DNA of 28,433 nt. Source: Bacteroidales bacterium UBA1253. GTDB taxonomy: Bacteria > Bacteroidota > Bacteroidia > Bacteroidales > Paludibacteraceae. This document shows, piece by piece, positions 17,005 to 22,818 of this stretch (position 1 is its first letter; each line of letters begins with the position of its first letter). The notes beneath the pieces are model-generated. The model did no database searches, had not been told where the DNA came from, and saw nothing but the letters and a program-made list of their open reading frames with translations. The position numbers and the translations under genes were made by a program. The DNA is taken from positions 2,096 to 30,528 of the forward strand of contig DBVX01000017.1 in NCBI GenBank assembly GCA_002308815.1. Reading direction: 5' to 3'.

Positions 17005-18756
17005 TTAATCGATACGCTGACCTTGCAGGTCATAGGCGGTGCCGTCAGGAGTAAGGATGCGGAGAATGCCGTTTTTCAGCAGTTTGCGGGGAGCGGGAGC
17101 GGCATCTCTTTCAGTCTCGTCCACGGGTGTTCCGCCAATGGTCTTGAAGGTGCCGGTCTTCGTGTCAATGGCTTTGCCTTGACTGTCTTTGGCTGTGAGG
17201 GTGTAGGTGTATTCGGTGTTTTCTTTCAGCCCTGTGACGGTGTACGAGAAAGTGCCTGCTTGTGGTTGTTTGCGGATGTTGTCCCTGTCCGGCGCACCAA
17301 AATTGAGGCTTGTCAGGTGTCCTTCTGCATCAAAGACAAGTGTACAAACGACATTGCCGCTTTTATCTTTTATCACCAGTTCGTATGATGCGGCACCTGA
17401 TATTTGCGGCCAGGCAATATCAGCAGAAGTGGTAGTAACGGTGACGGTAGGTGTAGTAACATCTCCCGATTGAGAGCTTATAGGCTGGATATTGGTAAAG
17501 TCTTTCCAGCCTTTTGCCAACTTGTACTGCTGAACCGAACTTGACGGAACATAAAGAGGAATGGATTTGTTCACGCCCTCGAAGGCATTATCTCCCAATG
17601 TTGGCGGGTTAACAGCTTCGCAGGTTATATAGGTCAAACTGCTGCAATAGTAGAAAGCAGCATATCCAATGCTTATGACGCTGTTGGGAATGGTTATGGA
17701 GGTCAAACTGTAGCATAGAGAGAAAGCACCGTGTCCGATGCTTGTGACGCTGTTGGGAATGGTGTACGAGGTGGCAGACTTATCTGCGGGATACTGAATA
17801 AGTGTTGTTTTATTCTTGTTAAATAACACACCATCTATATCGCAGTAATTTGGGTTTTTGGAATCAACCGTTATGGAGGTCAAACTGTAGCATTCATAGA
17901 AAGCCCAGTCTCCGATGCTTGTGACGCTGTTGGGAATGGTTACGGAGGTCAAACTGCGGCAATACTCGAAAGCATACCTTCCAATGCTTGTGACGCTGTT
18001 GGGAATGGTGACGGAGGTCAAACCGATGCAATTAGAGAAAGCCCATTCTCCGATGCTTGTAACGCTGTTGGGAATGGTTATGGAGGTCAGACTGCTGCAA
18101 GAAGAGAAAGCAGCTCCTTCAATGATTGTGACGCTGTTGGAAATGGTTACGGAGGTCAGACTGCTGCAATCCCAGAAAGCATAGCTTCCAATGCTTGTGA
18201 CGCTGTTGGGAATAACCAAGTCAGTAATTAATGTGCCATTCAGATATAGGTTTTGGGCATAATATAATGGATTAGAGAAGGGACGACTAAATGCTATTTT
18301 GCACCATGCGGCTATATCGGATATGTGTACGGAGGTCAAACTGCGACAATTATAGAAAGCCTCTACTCCAATGCTTGTGACGCTGTTGGGAATGGTGATG
18401 GAGGTCAGACTGCTGCAAGAAGAGAAAGCCCAGTCTCCGATGCTTGTGACGCTGTTGGGAATGGTTACGAAGGTCAAACTGCTGCAAATATCGAAAGCAT
18501 AGTTTCCAATGCTTGCCACGCCGTCTTCGATGATGACGGTTTTAATGGAAGTTCTATAGGAGGAATACCACGGTGATTTTGCATAAGAATCGTCGTAATC
18601 CGTCATTGCTCCGGTGCCGGAGATGGTAAGGGTGCCGGATTCGGTGTCAAGGGTCCATGTGAGGTTGTCGCCGCAGGTGCCGTTGTAGGTCTCGGCAAAG
18701 ATGGTTCCTACGCTTGCGGCAAGAGCAAGGAAGAGGGTTAGAAGTTTGTTCTTCAT
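17005..18756 (-). CDS. BspA-like leucine-rich-repeat surface protein with fibronectin-type domain
   Basis: This 583-residue secreted protein has a signal peptide (cleavage near residue 21, TIFA-ETYNG). A short N-terminal domain with [11 protein letters not shown] precedes about eleven LRR_5 (TpLRR/BspA) units of 23 residues, consensus [23 protein letters not shown]. These are interrupted by longer irregular segments such as [14 protein letters not shown] and [14 protein letters not shown] fibronectin type III-like domain follows (about 435-540, [22 protein letters not shown]...YTLTAKD). The tail [27 protein letters not shown] is typical of secreted Bacteroidales proteins. BspA-like proteins act in adhesion to host or bacterial surfaces; the ligand here is unknown. 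It is transcribed alone from upstream of 18756. Confidence 0.9.
17630..18560. repeat. 69-base tandem coding repeats of the BspA-like gene
   Basis: Within the LRR region, 69-base units recur with the near-constant plus-strand word GATGCTTGTGACGCTGTTGG and the word GGAGGTCAAACTG. Conservation is at the DNA level, beyond what the protein consensus needs, so the array has probably expanded or been homogenised recently and may vary in copy number between strains. Confidence 0.85.
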
Positions 18757-18947: not shown

Positions 18948-19118
18948 GAGGACATCTATTGCACTAATCTTGTTTTGGGTACACAAAATTTACCAGATTC
19001 TACGATGCCAAAACAAGCGTCAATAAACGCCTTTATTATGTACGTAACGTTCACTTCGGGGCGCAATGAACGGGAGCATATCCCGCCCACTTTCTTCCAG
19101 CGCGAAACATTACGGCGG

Positions 19119-19150
19119 CAAAAGTACAGAACAAAAGCGACATACGCAAA
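19119..19150 (-). promoter_or_regulatory. Spacer A promoter, reading toward the BspA-like gene
   Basis: TTTG (minus strand, 19147-19150), exactly 20 bases, then TACTTTTG (19119-19126) is a full Bacteroidota promoter. The same arrangement occurs in copies B and C. With no DUF1016 gene following, it would make a leader of about 355 bases before the BspA ATG. Confidence 0.65.
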
Positions 19151-19165
19151 GGGTATGTCGCTTTT
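19133..19165. terminator. Bidirectional terminator hairpin in spacer A
   Basis: AAAAGCGACATAC (19133-19145) and GTATGTCGCTTTT (19153-19165) form a perfect 13-bp stem with a 7-base loop, with T/U runs possible in both directions. The loop holds most of the -33 box of the promoter just described. Confidence 0.75.
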
Positions 19166-19276
19166 TGTTGTGTTTATAGTGCTTGTATCGGCAGGCAGCG
19201 CACGCTTTATTTATGTATGTCGTTGCACTGGCTGTCAGTGCCGGTGGGGCAGAGGCGGATATATTTAGCTCATTTG

Positions 19277-20413
19277 TTATTCATCCTCGGCAGAGGGCAG
19301 AGCGGATTGCACTTCCTCAATGAGTTGCTTGATTTCGTATTCAGCTACGCCCATCGGCTGTGAGAAACCCCGTAAAGAGAAACGAACTTTCTCATCGCTC
19401 TTGGTAGGGCAAAGGAGCAAGCCAATAGTAGGATTATCCTGCGGTGTCTTCACATACTCATCCACCGCAGAGATGTAGAAATTCAACTTGCTGACAAACT
19501 CGGGAATGAACTCCACCGCCTTCAGTTCTATGACCACATAGCGGTGCATCCTGAGATGATACATCAGCAAGTCCATCTTGTACTCATCGCCATCAACCGT
19601 TATGCGGAACTGTCTGCCGACAAAAGCAAACCCGCGCCCCATCTCCAGCAGGAAATCCACAATATGCTCCGTCAGTTTCTCCTCAATCGCCCGCTCGTTC
19701 TTCAGTTCCTGTGTGCCCAAGAAGCCAAAACAATACGGATCCTTGAACGCGTACCGTGCGAAATCCGAATCCACTGGCGGCAACGTGCCGGAGAAGTTGG
19801 TGACCGCTCTGCCCTTGACAGATATATAATCCGCAGCGATATTGGCCAACATGACATCGCGGCTCCATCCTTGCGCAGCCGTCTCCATAATGTAGAACGC
19901 GCGTTCGGTCAGCGATTTGACTTTTGGAAGAAGCGATATATGGTGATACCACGTGATTTGTGCAAGCGGCACTTGCACAAATGTCTCACCGTCTTTCTCT
20001 ATTTTGGCAAGCGGGACTTGCCAAATTGGTGTTCGGTTATTTTTGGCAAGTGCCACTTGCCAAAAATCATCTTCTTCTATTTGTGCAAACGGGACTTGCA
20101 GAAACGGGAAATCAGGATACTCTTGCGCAAAACGCTTCATGTTGCGTAAGTTACGATCTGAATAACCGTCATCTCCAGGAAAACGGCGGTGCAAGTCATT
20201 AGACAATTGTATGATGACCTGCGTACCCCATCCCAACTCCGCTTGTTTTTGTAGTATGTCTTTACCGATTTTCCAATATAGCGCAAGCAGTTCCTAGTTG
20301 ACATTGAGGACAGCCTGCAACTTGGATTTTTCAATGAGCGAAATGATGTTATCGCGCCATTGAGGATATTCCAGCGGAAGGATAATGGATGATAGATGTG
20401 CTATATTAGCCAT
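19277..20413 (-). pseudogene. DUF1016 (YhcG-like PDDEXK) gene 1, interrupted by an in-frame amber codon
   Basis: From the ATG at 20411-20413 the frame runs 378 codons to 19277, but codon 40 (20294-20296) is TAG, within the context VLNVN-stop-ELLALYWKIG. That is exactly where the DUF1016 N-terminal domain continues, so this is a nonsense mutation unless it is suppressed. After it the protein is intact: YSDRNLRNMKRFAQEYP, then four QVPLAQI-type repeats (about 104-153), TWYHHISLL, and the C-terminal PDDEXK nuclease domain with Asp281 (KMDLLMYH) and ELK (296-298). DUF1016 proteins are presumed nucleases, often near restriction-modification or defence genes; exact function is unproven. Restart at the first in-frame Met (about residue 92) would lose the N-terminal half-domain. 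Confidence 0.85.
19956..20104. repeat. Four in-frame palindromes inside DUF1016 gene 1
   Basis: Four palindromes recur every 37-47 bases. 19956-19982: 11-bp perfect arms, loop CGGCA. 20003-20025: 9-bp perfect arms, loop CGGGA. 20039-20067: 12-bp perfect arms, loop TGCCA. 20080-20104: 9-bp arms with one mismatch. They encode FVQVPLAQI, IWQVPLAKI, FWQVALAKN and FLQVPFAQI respectively. The arms differ from one another yet remain self-complementary. Confidence 0.92.
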
Positions 20414-20522
20414 TTTTTCGCAGCAACATAAACGCCTTTGTTATGTACGTAACGTTCACATCGGGGTATGATGAACGGGGCATATCCCGCCCACTTATCC
20501 CCAGCGTGAAACATTACGGCGG

Positions 20523-20554
20523 CAAAGGTACAGAACAAAAGCGACATACGCAAA
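20523..20554 (-). promoter_or_regulatory. Spacer B promoter for DUF1016 gene 1
   Basis: TTTG (20551-20554), 20 bases, TACCTTTG (20523-20530) on the minus strand is a consensus Bacteroidota promoter. Transcription would start near 20516, giving a leader of about 100 bases to the ATG at 20413. Confidence 0.8.
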
Positions 20555-20569
20555 GGGTATGTCGCTTTT
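20537..20569. terminator. Bidirectional terminator hairpin in spacer B
   Basis: The same perfect 13-bp stem with loop GCAAAGG as in spacer A, followed by a T-run on each strand. It should end transcripts coming from DUF1016 gene 2, while its loop carries the -33 box for gene 1. Confidence 0.75.
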
Positions 20570-20680
20570 TGTTGTGTTTATAGTGCTTGTATCGGCAGGC
20601 AGCGCACGTCTTATCTATGTATGTCGTTGCACTGGCTGTCAGTGCCGGTGGGGCAGAGGCAGGTGGTTTAGTATTCGTAT

Positions 20681-21721
20681 CTATTGTGTTGAGTTATCTT
20701 TTAGTCTCAATGTGCTGTTTTCTATCTCACGCTTGATTTCTTCCTCGGACGGCATATATGGGAGATACTTGGAAGCAAACATCTGCTTCGATTCATTGAG
20801 TACAGAATATTTGACAATCGTTTCGTCCTTATCGGCACAAAGCAAAATACCGATTGTAGGGTTGTCGTCTTTGCCACGTTTGATGTCATCGAACATACGG
20901 ATATACATATCCATTTGTCCCACATCGCGATGAGTGAGTTTTGTCGTTTTCAAGTCAATCAGCACAAAGCATTTGAGCAGGTAGTTGTAAAACACCAAAT
21001 CAATGTAGAAATGATTCGTCTCTGTGCTGATGCGGTATTGACGCTGAACGAACGAGAACCCCTTTCCCAATTCCAACATGAATTCCTGCAAGTTGTCTAT
21101 GATGGCATCTTCCAAAGGCTTCTCCCGATGGTGAGGGAAAGGCGGAAGCCCGACAAACTCCAGCACATAGGGATCTTTGACAAACTGCCTGATGTCCATC
21201 GGTTTCTCTTTCGCGGAAGTCTGCATTGCAGAATCCGCAGACGAAAGCATTCTCTGATAATAAAACGACTGTATATTCCGTTCCAACTGGCGCACACTCC
21301 ATTGCCGCGCCGCTGTTTCCTTCAGATACCATTCACGAACATCAGGATCTTCCACGCGCATTATCAGACGGTTATGACTCCACGGCAAATTGATACACAG
21401 TGTGTAGCAAATCTGTTCATCGGGATAAGTGCGATAGAACTGCCGCATGTTGCGCAAGTTGGCATAGGAAAAGCCGTTCCCGTATTCTGTTTCGAGTTTT
21501 CGGGATAGATTTTGCAACAGTTGTTCCCCGTATTTCGCCTTGTCCGCCCCACGTTGTTCCTCCAATACAATCCGGCGCCCTATCAACCAATATGCCGCCA
21601 CCATATCCGAGTTCACCACTTTCGCAGCATGCACGCGGGCTTCCGCAAGAATGGCACGGATATCTCCGAGCACATCTCCCGTTGCAGGCGTATTATTGGA
21701 CGGAATGGTGATTCCTTTCAT
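20681..21721 (-). CDS. DUF1016 (YhcG-like PDDEXK nuclease domain) protein, gene 2, intact
   Basis: This 346-residue protein is the only complete member of the array. The DUF1016 N-terminal helical domain spans about residues 15-160 (VVNSDMVAAYWLIGRRIV, YANLRNMRQFYRTYP, LPWSHNRLIMRVEDPDVREWYLKE, QWSVRQLERNI). The C-terminal PDDEXK domain spans about 180-330: VKDPYVLEFVGLP, FVQRQYRI, Asp241 in YIDLVFYN and DLK at 256-258. It is presumed to act on nucleic acid; YhcG relatives are often found with restriction systems and mobile elements, but no substrate is established. The start ATG is at 21719-21721, with a conserved leader and promoter in spacer C. A quasi-palindrome (21390-21410) precedes the WSH motif, as in its neighbours. 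Confidence 0.88.
   Translation of the reverse strand: MKGITIPSNNTPATGDVLGDIRAILAEARVHAAKVVNSDMVAAYWLIGRRIVLEEQRGADKAKYGEQLLQNLSRKLETEYGNGFSYANLRNMRQFYRTYPDEQICYTLCINLPWSHNRLIMRVEDPDVREWYLKETAARQWSVRQLERNIQSFYYQRMLSSADSAMQTSAKEKPMDIRQFVKDPYVLEFVGLPPFPHHREKPLEDAIIDNLQEFMLELGKGFSFVQRQYRISTETNHFYIDLVFYNYLLKCFVLIDLKTTKLTHRDVGQMDMYIRMFDDIKRGKDDNPTIGILLCADKDETIVKYSVLNESKQMFASKYLPYMPSEEEIKREIENSTLRLKDNSTQ
21390..21410. repeat. In-frame quasi-palindrome in DUF1016 gene 2
   Basis: TTGATACACA-G-TGTGTAGCAA pairs as 10-bp arms with one mismatch around a single central base. It encodes part of QICYTLCIN, directly before LPWSHN, the position at which gene 1 carries its palindromic repeats. Confidence 0.75.
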
Positions 21722-21876
21722 AAATTGATGTTCTGTTACAATTGTTGTGAAAATTCAGTGTGTCGCAAACTGCGTTCAACAAGCGCTGTGTTATTATGTA
21801 CGTAACGTTCACTTCGGGGTGCAATGAACGGGAGCATATCCCTTCCACTTATCCCCAGCGTGAAACATTACGGCGG

Positions 21877-21908
21877 CAAAAGTACAGAACAAAAGCGACA
21901 TACGCAAA
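21877..21908 (-). promoter_or_regulatory. Spacer C promoter for DUF1016 gene 2
   Basis: TTTG (21905-21908), 20 bases, TACTTTTG (21877-21884) on the minus strand. Transcription would start near 21870, about 150 bases before the gene 2 ATG. Confidence 0.8.
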
Positions 21909-21923
21909 TGGTATGTCGTTTTT
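21891..21923. terminator. Bidirectional terminator hairpin in spacer C
   Basis: AAAAGCGACATAC pairs with GTATGTCGTTTTT around GCAAATG. One G-C pair of copies A and B is replaced by a G-T pair, so the stem is retained. Confidence 0.75.
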
Positions 21924-22022
21924 TGTTGTGTTTATAGTGCTTGTATCGGCAGGCAGCGCACGTCTTATTTATGTATGTCGTTGCACCGGCTGTCAGTGCC
22001 GGTGGGGCAGAGGCGGGTGGTG

Positions 22023-22818
22023 TTATTCGTTACTATCCATTAGTTGATTGAGTTGCTCCTGCAGTTCTGCTTTATTGGGCAGATAGAGTTGATAACGAGC
22101 CGCAAAAAGATTGTTATCAATGCCTGCAAGGGCATACTCCATCAGCAGTTCGTCTTTCTTCGCCCCCAAGACAACACCAATAGGCGGATTGTCGTCAGGC
22201 TGGCATACTTCATTCTTGAAATAGTTGATATACACATTCATTTGCCCGATGTCCTTATGAGTGACTGCACCTCTTTTCAAATCAATCAGAACAAAACACT
22301 TCAATATCCGATGATAGAAGGCGAGATCCACATGGTAACGGGAATTATTGATGGTCATCCCATATTGCCGCTTAACAAATGTAAACCCCTTACCCAACTC
22401 CAACAAGAACATTTGCATATTGTCAATCAGTTTTTTTTTCCAACTGGCTTTCCTTGTACTTATCGGGCAGTCCCCAAAATTCCAAAGTGTACGTGGCTTT
22501 TACCACATCTTCGGGAGATTGAACCTGTTGTCCTTTTTTCGCTAATGCTAGTACACCAGCCTTGTCTTTATCCAGAGCCAGACGCATAAAAAGTCCGCTC
22601 TCTTTCTGGCGATGCAGACAGCCAACCGTCCAGCTCTCTGCTATACATTCATTGGCGTAGAATTCCCGCTCCAAATCATCATCAATCGTTATCAGCTCGC
22701 AGATGTGCGACCAAGTCAATTTGTCAGATGTCTGACAGATTGCACCAGATTTGTCAGATGTCTGAAATTTTCCGACGGAACAGAAGAAAGAGCGGCTGTG
22801 GTCAAACACCACCGGCAT
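22023..22818 (-). pseudogene. DUF1016 gene 3, 5'-truncated and frameshifted
   Basis: Two frames together form most of one DUF1016 protein. The upstream part (22423-22818) carries LTWSHICELITIDDDLEREFYANECIAESWTV and YTLEFWGLPDKYKESQLEKK. The downstream part (ending 22023) carries ELGKGFTFVKRQYG, HVDLAFYH and IDLK, so the nuclease motifs are kept. They are split at a run of nine A (22431-22439, T on the plus strand); eight would restore SQLEKKLIDNMQMFLLELGKG. The first hundred or so residues of the family's N-terminal domain are missing: the frame starts only 58 bases after the TonB-type gene's stop and no homologous start is visible. Two QTSDK repeats precede the WSH motif. It may be a decaying gene or, less likely, a slippage-controlled one. 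Confidence 0.8.
22717..22765. repeat. Palindromic direct repeats in DUF1016 gene 3
   Basis: A 17-base word (ATTTGTCAGATGTCTGA) occurs at 22719-22735 and 22749-22765, a 30-base (ten-codon) period. The first copy sits in a near-perfect palindrome at 22717-22742, 12-bp arms with one G-T pair and a two-base centre. The second keeps only 5-bp arms. They encode the two QTSDK units just before TWSH. Confidence 0.85.

Follow-up and report, generated by a model that had tools for sequence, protein, structure and literature searches.

A palindrome inside DUF1016 (YhcG) nuclease genes that the encoded protein itself appears to read

Why should protein-coding DNA be palindromic at the same place in three neighbouring genes whose palindromic words differ? 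The window, that is, the whole stretch of 28,433 nucleotides from Bacteroidales bacterium UBA1253 analysed here, raises this question through three genes of the DUF1016 (YhcG) family, each carrying palindromic DNA just before a conserved tryptophan (Trp) codon. A sequence-only reading of the window had described these palindromes and offered three suggestions: small palindromic insertions tolerated at a linker, templated hairpin copying, or DNA sites that matter to the nuclease or its regulation. Our findings strongly support the last of the three, as the letters of the site co-vary with residues of the predicted DNA-binding domain, and the palindrome is very probably the cognate site of the gene's own protein. 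The genes and palindromes concerned are:

19277..20236, minus strand: gene 1, a DUF1016 gene whose listed open reading frame starts downstream of an in-frame TAG; Pfam PF17761 and PF06250.
19956..19982, minus strand: gene 1 palindrome at the standard position (offset -18), perfect arms of 11 bp.
20003..20025, minus strand: second palindrome of gene 1, perfect arms of 9 bp.
20039..20067, minus strand: third palindrome of gene 1, perfect arms of 14 bp.
20080..20103, minus strand: fourth palindrome of gene 1, imperfect.
20681..21721, minus strand: gene 2, an intact DUF1016 gene, by open reading frame and Pfam domains; its product was used for the structure model.
21390..21410, minus strand: gene 2 palindrome at the standard position, 10-bp arms with one mismatch, a single occurrence in the genome.
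22023..22818, minus strand: gene 3, a broken DUF1016 gene, its 5' part missing and the remainder in two open reading frames.
22717..22742, minus strand: gene 3 palindrome at the standard position, 12-bp arms with one mismatch.
22749..22765, minus strand: partial second copy in gene 3.

The palindromes are real in all three genes, at the coordinates listed above. The earlier description also stands for the single 10-bp-arm quasi-palindrome of gene 2, for the near-perfect 12-bp-arm palindrome and partial copy of gene 3, and for the four palindromes of gene 1, three of them perfect; only the arm range of 9-12 bp has to be corrected, the third arm being 14 bp. Gene 2 is the sole intact one among the three, since gene 1 has one in-frame TAG inside its domain match, upstream of the listed open reading frame, and gene 3 retains its N-terminal domain without the 5' part, with its two open reading frames in different frames. 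The genome holds five DUF1016 places, and a palindrome occurs in this part of the gene in 5/5. In one of the other two (L002; the second is L004), two palindromes share one word, and the upstream copy, lying in another phase, encodes an unrelated peptide.

Is this a peculiarity of one genome? The family set, 343 different DUF1016 frames in all, was drawn from the taxonomic family of UBA1253, its phylum, other phyla, archaea, plasmids, phages and viral contigs. The conserved Trp column, used as anchor, was present in 321 of the 343 (22 were dropped); after removal of frames with fewer than 25 codons before the anchor, or alike around it, 308 non-redundant genes were kept. With a call defined as a score of at least 8 in up to 180 nt before the Trp codon, a palindrome is found in 276 of the 308 genes; synonymous recodings reached this score in 43 of 1540 cases and downstream segments of 180 nt in 11 of 300. 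An initial set of 119 non-redundant relatives gave 107/119, with 5.2% for synonymous recodings, 3.3% for codon-order shuffles and 6/229 for downstream segments. The comparison of inverted repeats before the Trp with codon-preserving controls, which the sequence-only reading had proposed for Bacteroidota, gives a clear excess in this wider set.

By a strict odd-centre score, the palindrome is centred at exactly -18 nt relative to the Trp codon in 200 of the 308 genes; another 69 carry displaced copies alone, and 39 lack a hit, a figure that includes even-centred sites missed by this score (15 of the 39 reach at least 8 at any parity over up to 210 nt). Displaced copies lie mostly upstream of the standard site and in the same codon phase (320 of 336 hits fall in one phase), and extra copies are found within in-frame insertions. 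The peptide encoded at the standard site is conserved and mostly follows the pattern I-V-x-T-L-S-x-x-L. There is a second fixed site at -123 to -129, and its word resembles the one at -18 (0.868, n = 33, versus 0.576). Half-site words are alike within a gene (0.79, n = 63) and different between genes (0.39, n = 2256).

Self-complementarity is kept at the level of the DNA, at a fixed position and codon phase, with words common to the copies within a gene. About the -18 centre, at least 7 of 10 positions are paired in 162 of 213 genes, whereas each of 14 control centres gave 0-4 of 210-213. In these 162 genes, which were selected for pairing out of the 213 and on which all pair counts by distance rest, the arms change in compensation, distances 3-9 being Watson-Crick in 132-158 of 162 against shuffled means of 46-97. 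Could a conserved peptide be encoded by symmetric codons by chance? The conserved peptide of the standard copy is what such a coincidence would start from, yet the palindrome is lost in synonymous recodings, as counted above, six genes have an off-frame copy at -56, and copies outside the frame exist. These observations refute the idea, to which we give practically no credence.

A constraint on the transcript, acting through an mRNA hairpin, fares little better and is extremely improbable. As the strand is transcribed, a hairpin is conceivable, but the exceptions to pairing at distances 2-12 include no excess of G.T over A.C (34 vs 45); G.T exceeds A.C at distances 1 and 13 only (30 vs 8; 44 vs 0), where the 3' base is almost invariant and pairing stays within the range of shuffles. 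Position 2, beside the one-base centre, where a pair is impossible in RNA, is paired in 154 of 162 genes, and cognate copies in E. coli lie outside coding sequence. The explanation was rejected on the G.T counts, the centre pairs and the extragenic copies. Near-perfect copies of a gene's own word outside the frame were found, at a strict threshold, in 4 of 114 genes versus 8 of 4109 control trials (L181, L136 and L156 within 50 nt; L172 at 1310 nt). At a loose threshold extragenic sites were not clearly above control (17 sites in 12/117 genes; 102 in 1043 control trials), and these own-word scans did not find palindromic sites in promoters as a rule.

What, then, do the letters of the site follow? 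Our results clearly show that site bases and protein residues co-vary. Residues are counted from the conserved Trp and positions (r) in bases from the palindrome centre; by mutual information between site bases and aligned residues, few residues stand out beyond the codons that the palindrome itself encodes. At standard sites, Arg at residue -27 goes with G at position 7 in 71/72 and Lys with C in 42/45. At +4, Arg goes with C in 55/59, Leu and Ile mostly with A, and Val with G; at +1, Ser goes mostly with A, Thr with G or T, and Gly with C; and at +29, Val goes mostly with A, Lys and Arg mostly with C. Shared ancestry was limited by a test in which each gene is matched with the closest relative still unpaired (130 pairs at a median identity of 0.67), and the frequency with which the base differs when the residue differs is set against that when the residue is the same. 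This gave 44/68 vs 5/55 for -27/r7, 33/45 vs 8/64 for +29/r3, 24/54 vs 2/57 for +4/r4 and 28/40 vs 13/70 for +1/r3, all four equalled by 0 of 315-321 control columns. A scan of 4005 residue-position pairs added -24/r8 (24/56 vs 1/67) and -23/r6 (22/43 vs 8/72), as well as -41/r3, whose residue can be encoded by the second site. The coupling of -23/r5 is weak, and that of -58/-59 with position 8 was dropped, as it failed the nearest-pair test. In gene 2 the residues lie at:

21449..21463, minus strand: codons of residues -27, -24 and -23, in model helix 85-97; proposed readers of positions 7, 8 and 5-6.
21368..21382, minus strand: conserved Trp codon (21380-21382) with codons +1 and +4, proposed readers of positions 3 and 4.
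21293..21295, minus strand: codon +29, proposed second reader of position 3.

The couplings also allow bases to be predicted, with genes less than 50% identical serving as teachers. Two residues give the correct base at position 3 in 215 of 238 genes (majority guess 80); the base is right at r4 in 180/244 (majority 11), r5 in 199/254 (145), r6 in 162/249 (97) and r7 in 197/257 (78), while prediction of position 8 is no better than the majority guess (170 vs 175 of 257). At displaced sites, position 3 is right in 53/57 (majority 22) by way of residues that lie downstream of the Trp, outside the coding reach of every scored site; r5 (50/61) and r6 (48/63) hold, and r4 (31/63) and r7 (35/64) are weaker. 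A ranking from displaced sites only was led by position 2 with many columns, which was read as a subfamily signal and left unused, +29/r3 and +1/r3 standing lower in that list. Taken together, the patterns suggest that the palindrome in a gene is read by the protein which that gene encodes. As the letters of the site change in step with the residues that apparently read them, each nuclease is suggested to recognise its own gene.

Does the protein have the architecture for such a role? Genes 1 and 2 match DUF1016_N (PF17761) and the YhcG_C nuclease domain (PF06250) above both cut-offs, and gene 3 does so in two pieces; the PADLOC profile PDC-S02 is matched by gene 1 (E 1.3e-107) and gene 2 (E 4.1e-139). 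Asp, Lys and other nuclease motif columns are invariant in a 56-sequence alignment, which is suggestive of the predicted nuclease activity. In the predicted structure of gene 2, the coupled residues start helices 85-97, 113-120 and 142-150, and the stretch encoded by the standard palindrome copy forms a short helix and a turn within the predicted DNA-binding domain. The N-terminal part of the model aligns to the DNA-binding domains of Noc and ParB, a middling match among the folds ranked by Foldseek; a sequence search gave no credible solved relative, and a Pfam scan up to E 0.01 found no ParB CTPase domain in gene 2.

From these patterns we infer physical binding, dimerisation and use of the site. 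DUF1016 (YhcG) would be a sequence-specific DNA-binding nuclease in which a ParB/Noc-like helix-turn-helix domain precedes a NucS-like PD-(D/E)XK domain, and the palindrome in its gene would be bound by a symmetric dimer, each subunit taking one half-site. Residue -27 would read position 7, -23 positions 5-6, +4 position 4 and +1 together with +29 position 3, whereas -24 may read position 8.

The same data bear on the remaining suggestions of the sequence-only reading. A selfish or mutational origin, in which small palindromic insertions or hairpin-templated copying keep the arms symmetric and the protein has no role, is in line with the extra copies being in-frame insertions and with outer arms that vary between the copies of one gene yet stay paired. 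Among the 51 copies of the 22 tandem-copy genes, position 7 is paired in 98%, while the base there is the same between copies in only 50% of 36 comparisons; for all 48 multi-copy genes the values are 95% and 60% of 58 comparisons. Insertion fits the extra copies, whose number varies between E. coli strains, but not the standard copy, which encodes a helix and turn, and hairpin copying fits the tandem-copy counts but leaves the covariation outside the palindrome-coded codons unexplained. Neither the fixed place at -18 nor the failure of the words of genes 1 and 2 to recur elsewhere in the genome would follow from such a process. As the whole explanation it is very unlikely; it may act in addition to reading by the protein.

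Pairing at position 7 without a shared base is not demanded by base reading in a dimer, so that reading of a cruciform or template-switch copying may act too. In the former case the pairing itself would be recognised besides the core letters, as in junction-cutting nucleases of the same superfamily. Positions 7-9 stay paired without base identity between copies, the arms, at 12-13 bp, reach further out than the positions to which a reading residue could be assigned, and the part of a 2005 survey available to us relates the YhcG nuclease domain to junction resolvases (PMC1189080). The base-specific couplings at positions 3-7, however, fit reading of a duplex. We regard the cruciform as unlikely, and as something that may be added to recognition of the own-gene site by the protein rather than replace it.

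Where else do the words occur? In the UBA1253 genome, the gene 2 word is found once and the gene 1 word not above control (the gene 3 word was not searched). In a search with the 31-base E. coli site, which covers each genome's best place and not lesser places, that place is in a yhcG/DUF1016/PDDEXK gene in 40/40 matches listed, of 3526 genomes matching. A dispersed repeat or regulon was rejected on these two results. In a blind check, the 30-bp site of E. coli FDAARGOS_1264 matched 27 of 72,556 plasmid records. Among the 15 matches listed there are 4 E. coli records, 4 genes annotated as PDDEXK nucleases (Hymenobacter, Citrobacter, Pseudomonas, Nostoc) and the Nostoc gene already in the family set; of four further matches inspected from the same 15, the site lies inside a DUF1016 frame in Variovorax, Cupriavidus and Pseudomonas and not in Cetobacterium. 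There (L346, 3001-3029), a palindrome with the E. coli core lies near a tyrosine recombinase gene with no DUF1016 match within 3 kb, which speaks against strict exclusivity of the site to DUF1016 genes. Among phages, the E. coli site matched 6 records; one of them is the DUF1016 gene L211, which was already among those collected, and the others are weak or unannotated. Exclusion between like words in one genome was unsupported (half-site identity 0.333 within and 0.366 between; perfect pairs 1/66 vs 1.09 expected).

E. coli yhcG brings in a further possibility, in which the protein binds as proposed above and the purpose differs: the palindromes would be action sites of a mobile or self-targeting locus, where the nuclease, possibly together with a tyrosine recombinase, would cut or recombine DNA so that the element is inserted, excised or renewed. 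The gltF-yhcG island of E. coli K-12 lines has a cognate site at either end, outside coding sequence, and FDAARGOS_1264, which lacks the island, has one site with the same outer flanks on either side; this single site, however, is itself a perfect palindrome and no simple crossover product, and strain 405 has yhcG without the left site. The copy number of the palindrome within yhcG differs between E. coli strains, as had been proposed for examination at the outset. In four plasmids (L204, L209, L210, L347) a tyrosine-recombinase-type integrase gene overlaps the DUF1016 start by 4 nt, but integrases occupy just 3/101 flanking frames, where restriction genes too are at low counts. A gene that retains its own target would itself be cut, and we know of no protection for a gene carrying the target of its own nuclease. 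As reported in the accessible part of the source, deletion of yhcG is synthetic lethal with weakened dnaB, dnaN or parE (PMC2672614), which would suit a locus-directed activity. We consider action sites quite possible, if short of probable. Separately, yhcG of E. coli K-12 (L322 3623-4750) has Arg at the column of the conserved Trp, where nearly all relatives and the other E. coli alleles examined have Trp.

With the palindrome taken as the cognate site of the gene's own protein, its use can be proposed only tentatively. Slightly favoured over mobility or self-cleavage, at somewhat less than even confidence, is a portable intragenic operator that would tie the nuclease to its own gene by self-contained autoregulation, so that a mobile, potentially harmful gene would go on controlling itself at any new location. 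Next comes a role in movement, excision or cleavage of the locus. A wider picture seems rather unlikely as a whole: a self-addressed nuclease family of bacteria and archaea, its site often within the code of the DNA-binding domain, in which protein and site co-evolve into many specificities, the site serves acting on the own locus (cutting, excision, insertion, renewal) and the cruciform is part of recognition.

If each protein does recognise its own gene, a widespread nuclease family still lacking characterisation (yhcG in E. coli K-12; the phage-defence candidate PDC-S02) would gain a defined DNA target for each member, together with part of a recognition code. It would also be unusual in that one DNA stretch is constrained as protein code and, apparently, as binding site of the same protein, and would amount to natural re-targeting across many lineages.

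The surroundings of the window genes contain a repeat of ~235 bp, at 19023-19256, 20425-20660 and 21791-22014, the outer copies being 93-94% identical to the middle one. It contains a hairpin with 13-bp arms, stands upstream of genes 1 and 2 and downstream of gene 1, and has shorter partial copies on genome contigs C11, C59, C81 and C104. A gene for a BspA-type leucine-rich repeat protein (17005-18756) adjoins the DUF1016 cluster.

How does this compare with known systems? Rickettsial palindromic elements, cited loosely as a precedent by the sequence-only reading, prove a poor one. They too place palindromic DNA in frame within genes, as far as the consulted part of the source describes them (PMC4316617), but measure ~100-150 nt and occur in varied genes and intergenic regions, whereas the palindromes here measure ~25 nt and belong to one family with member-specific words. 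One repeat dispersed in unrelated genes and intergenic regions is not what we find, as the words of genes 1 and 2 are not dispersed and words differ between genes.

RAYT/REP pairs and homing endonucleases are DNA-acting enzymes with a cognate site linked to their own gene, and DUF1016 resembles them in the proposed pairing of enzyme and gene-linked site. REPs are dispersed and homing genes interrupt their target; in DUF1016, unlike both, the site is intact inside the gene and the tested words are not dispersed. The domains are DUF1016_N and YhcG_C, with no HUH tyrosine transposase (RAYT) among them, and the proposed site persists within the gene, whereas insertion of a homing gene destroys its recognition site.

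By profile, the window genes are members of the DUF1016/YhcG family and of the PADLOC candidate PDC-S02. Titles and abstract openings of the papers matched in a search of open-access literature, outside which most subscription papers fall, name no own-gene site for DUF1016, YhcG or PDC-S02. EndoMS is a mismatch nuclease; unlike EndoMS/NucS, DUF1016 has a predicted word-specific, ParB-like domain before its PD-(D/E)XK nuclease.

In recognition, the predicted likeness is to ParB-parS (chromosome partition) and Noc-NBS (nucleoid occlusion), where a helix-turn-helix domain reads a palindrome as a dimer through few specificity residues, as binding here is predicted to do from covariation. In the part of the ParB study consulted, residues 173-201 are spaced 28 apart (PMC7383237), equal to model residues 86-114 here. 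Unlike ParB and Noc, gene 2 has a nuclease domain, and no ParB CTPase domain was detected by the Pfam scan. In B. subtilis a parS lies inside a parB-type gene; DUF1016 differs from ParB and Noc in that its words are many and the site lies within the own gene in most members.

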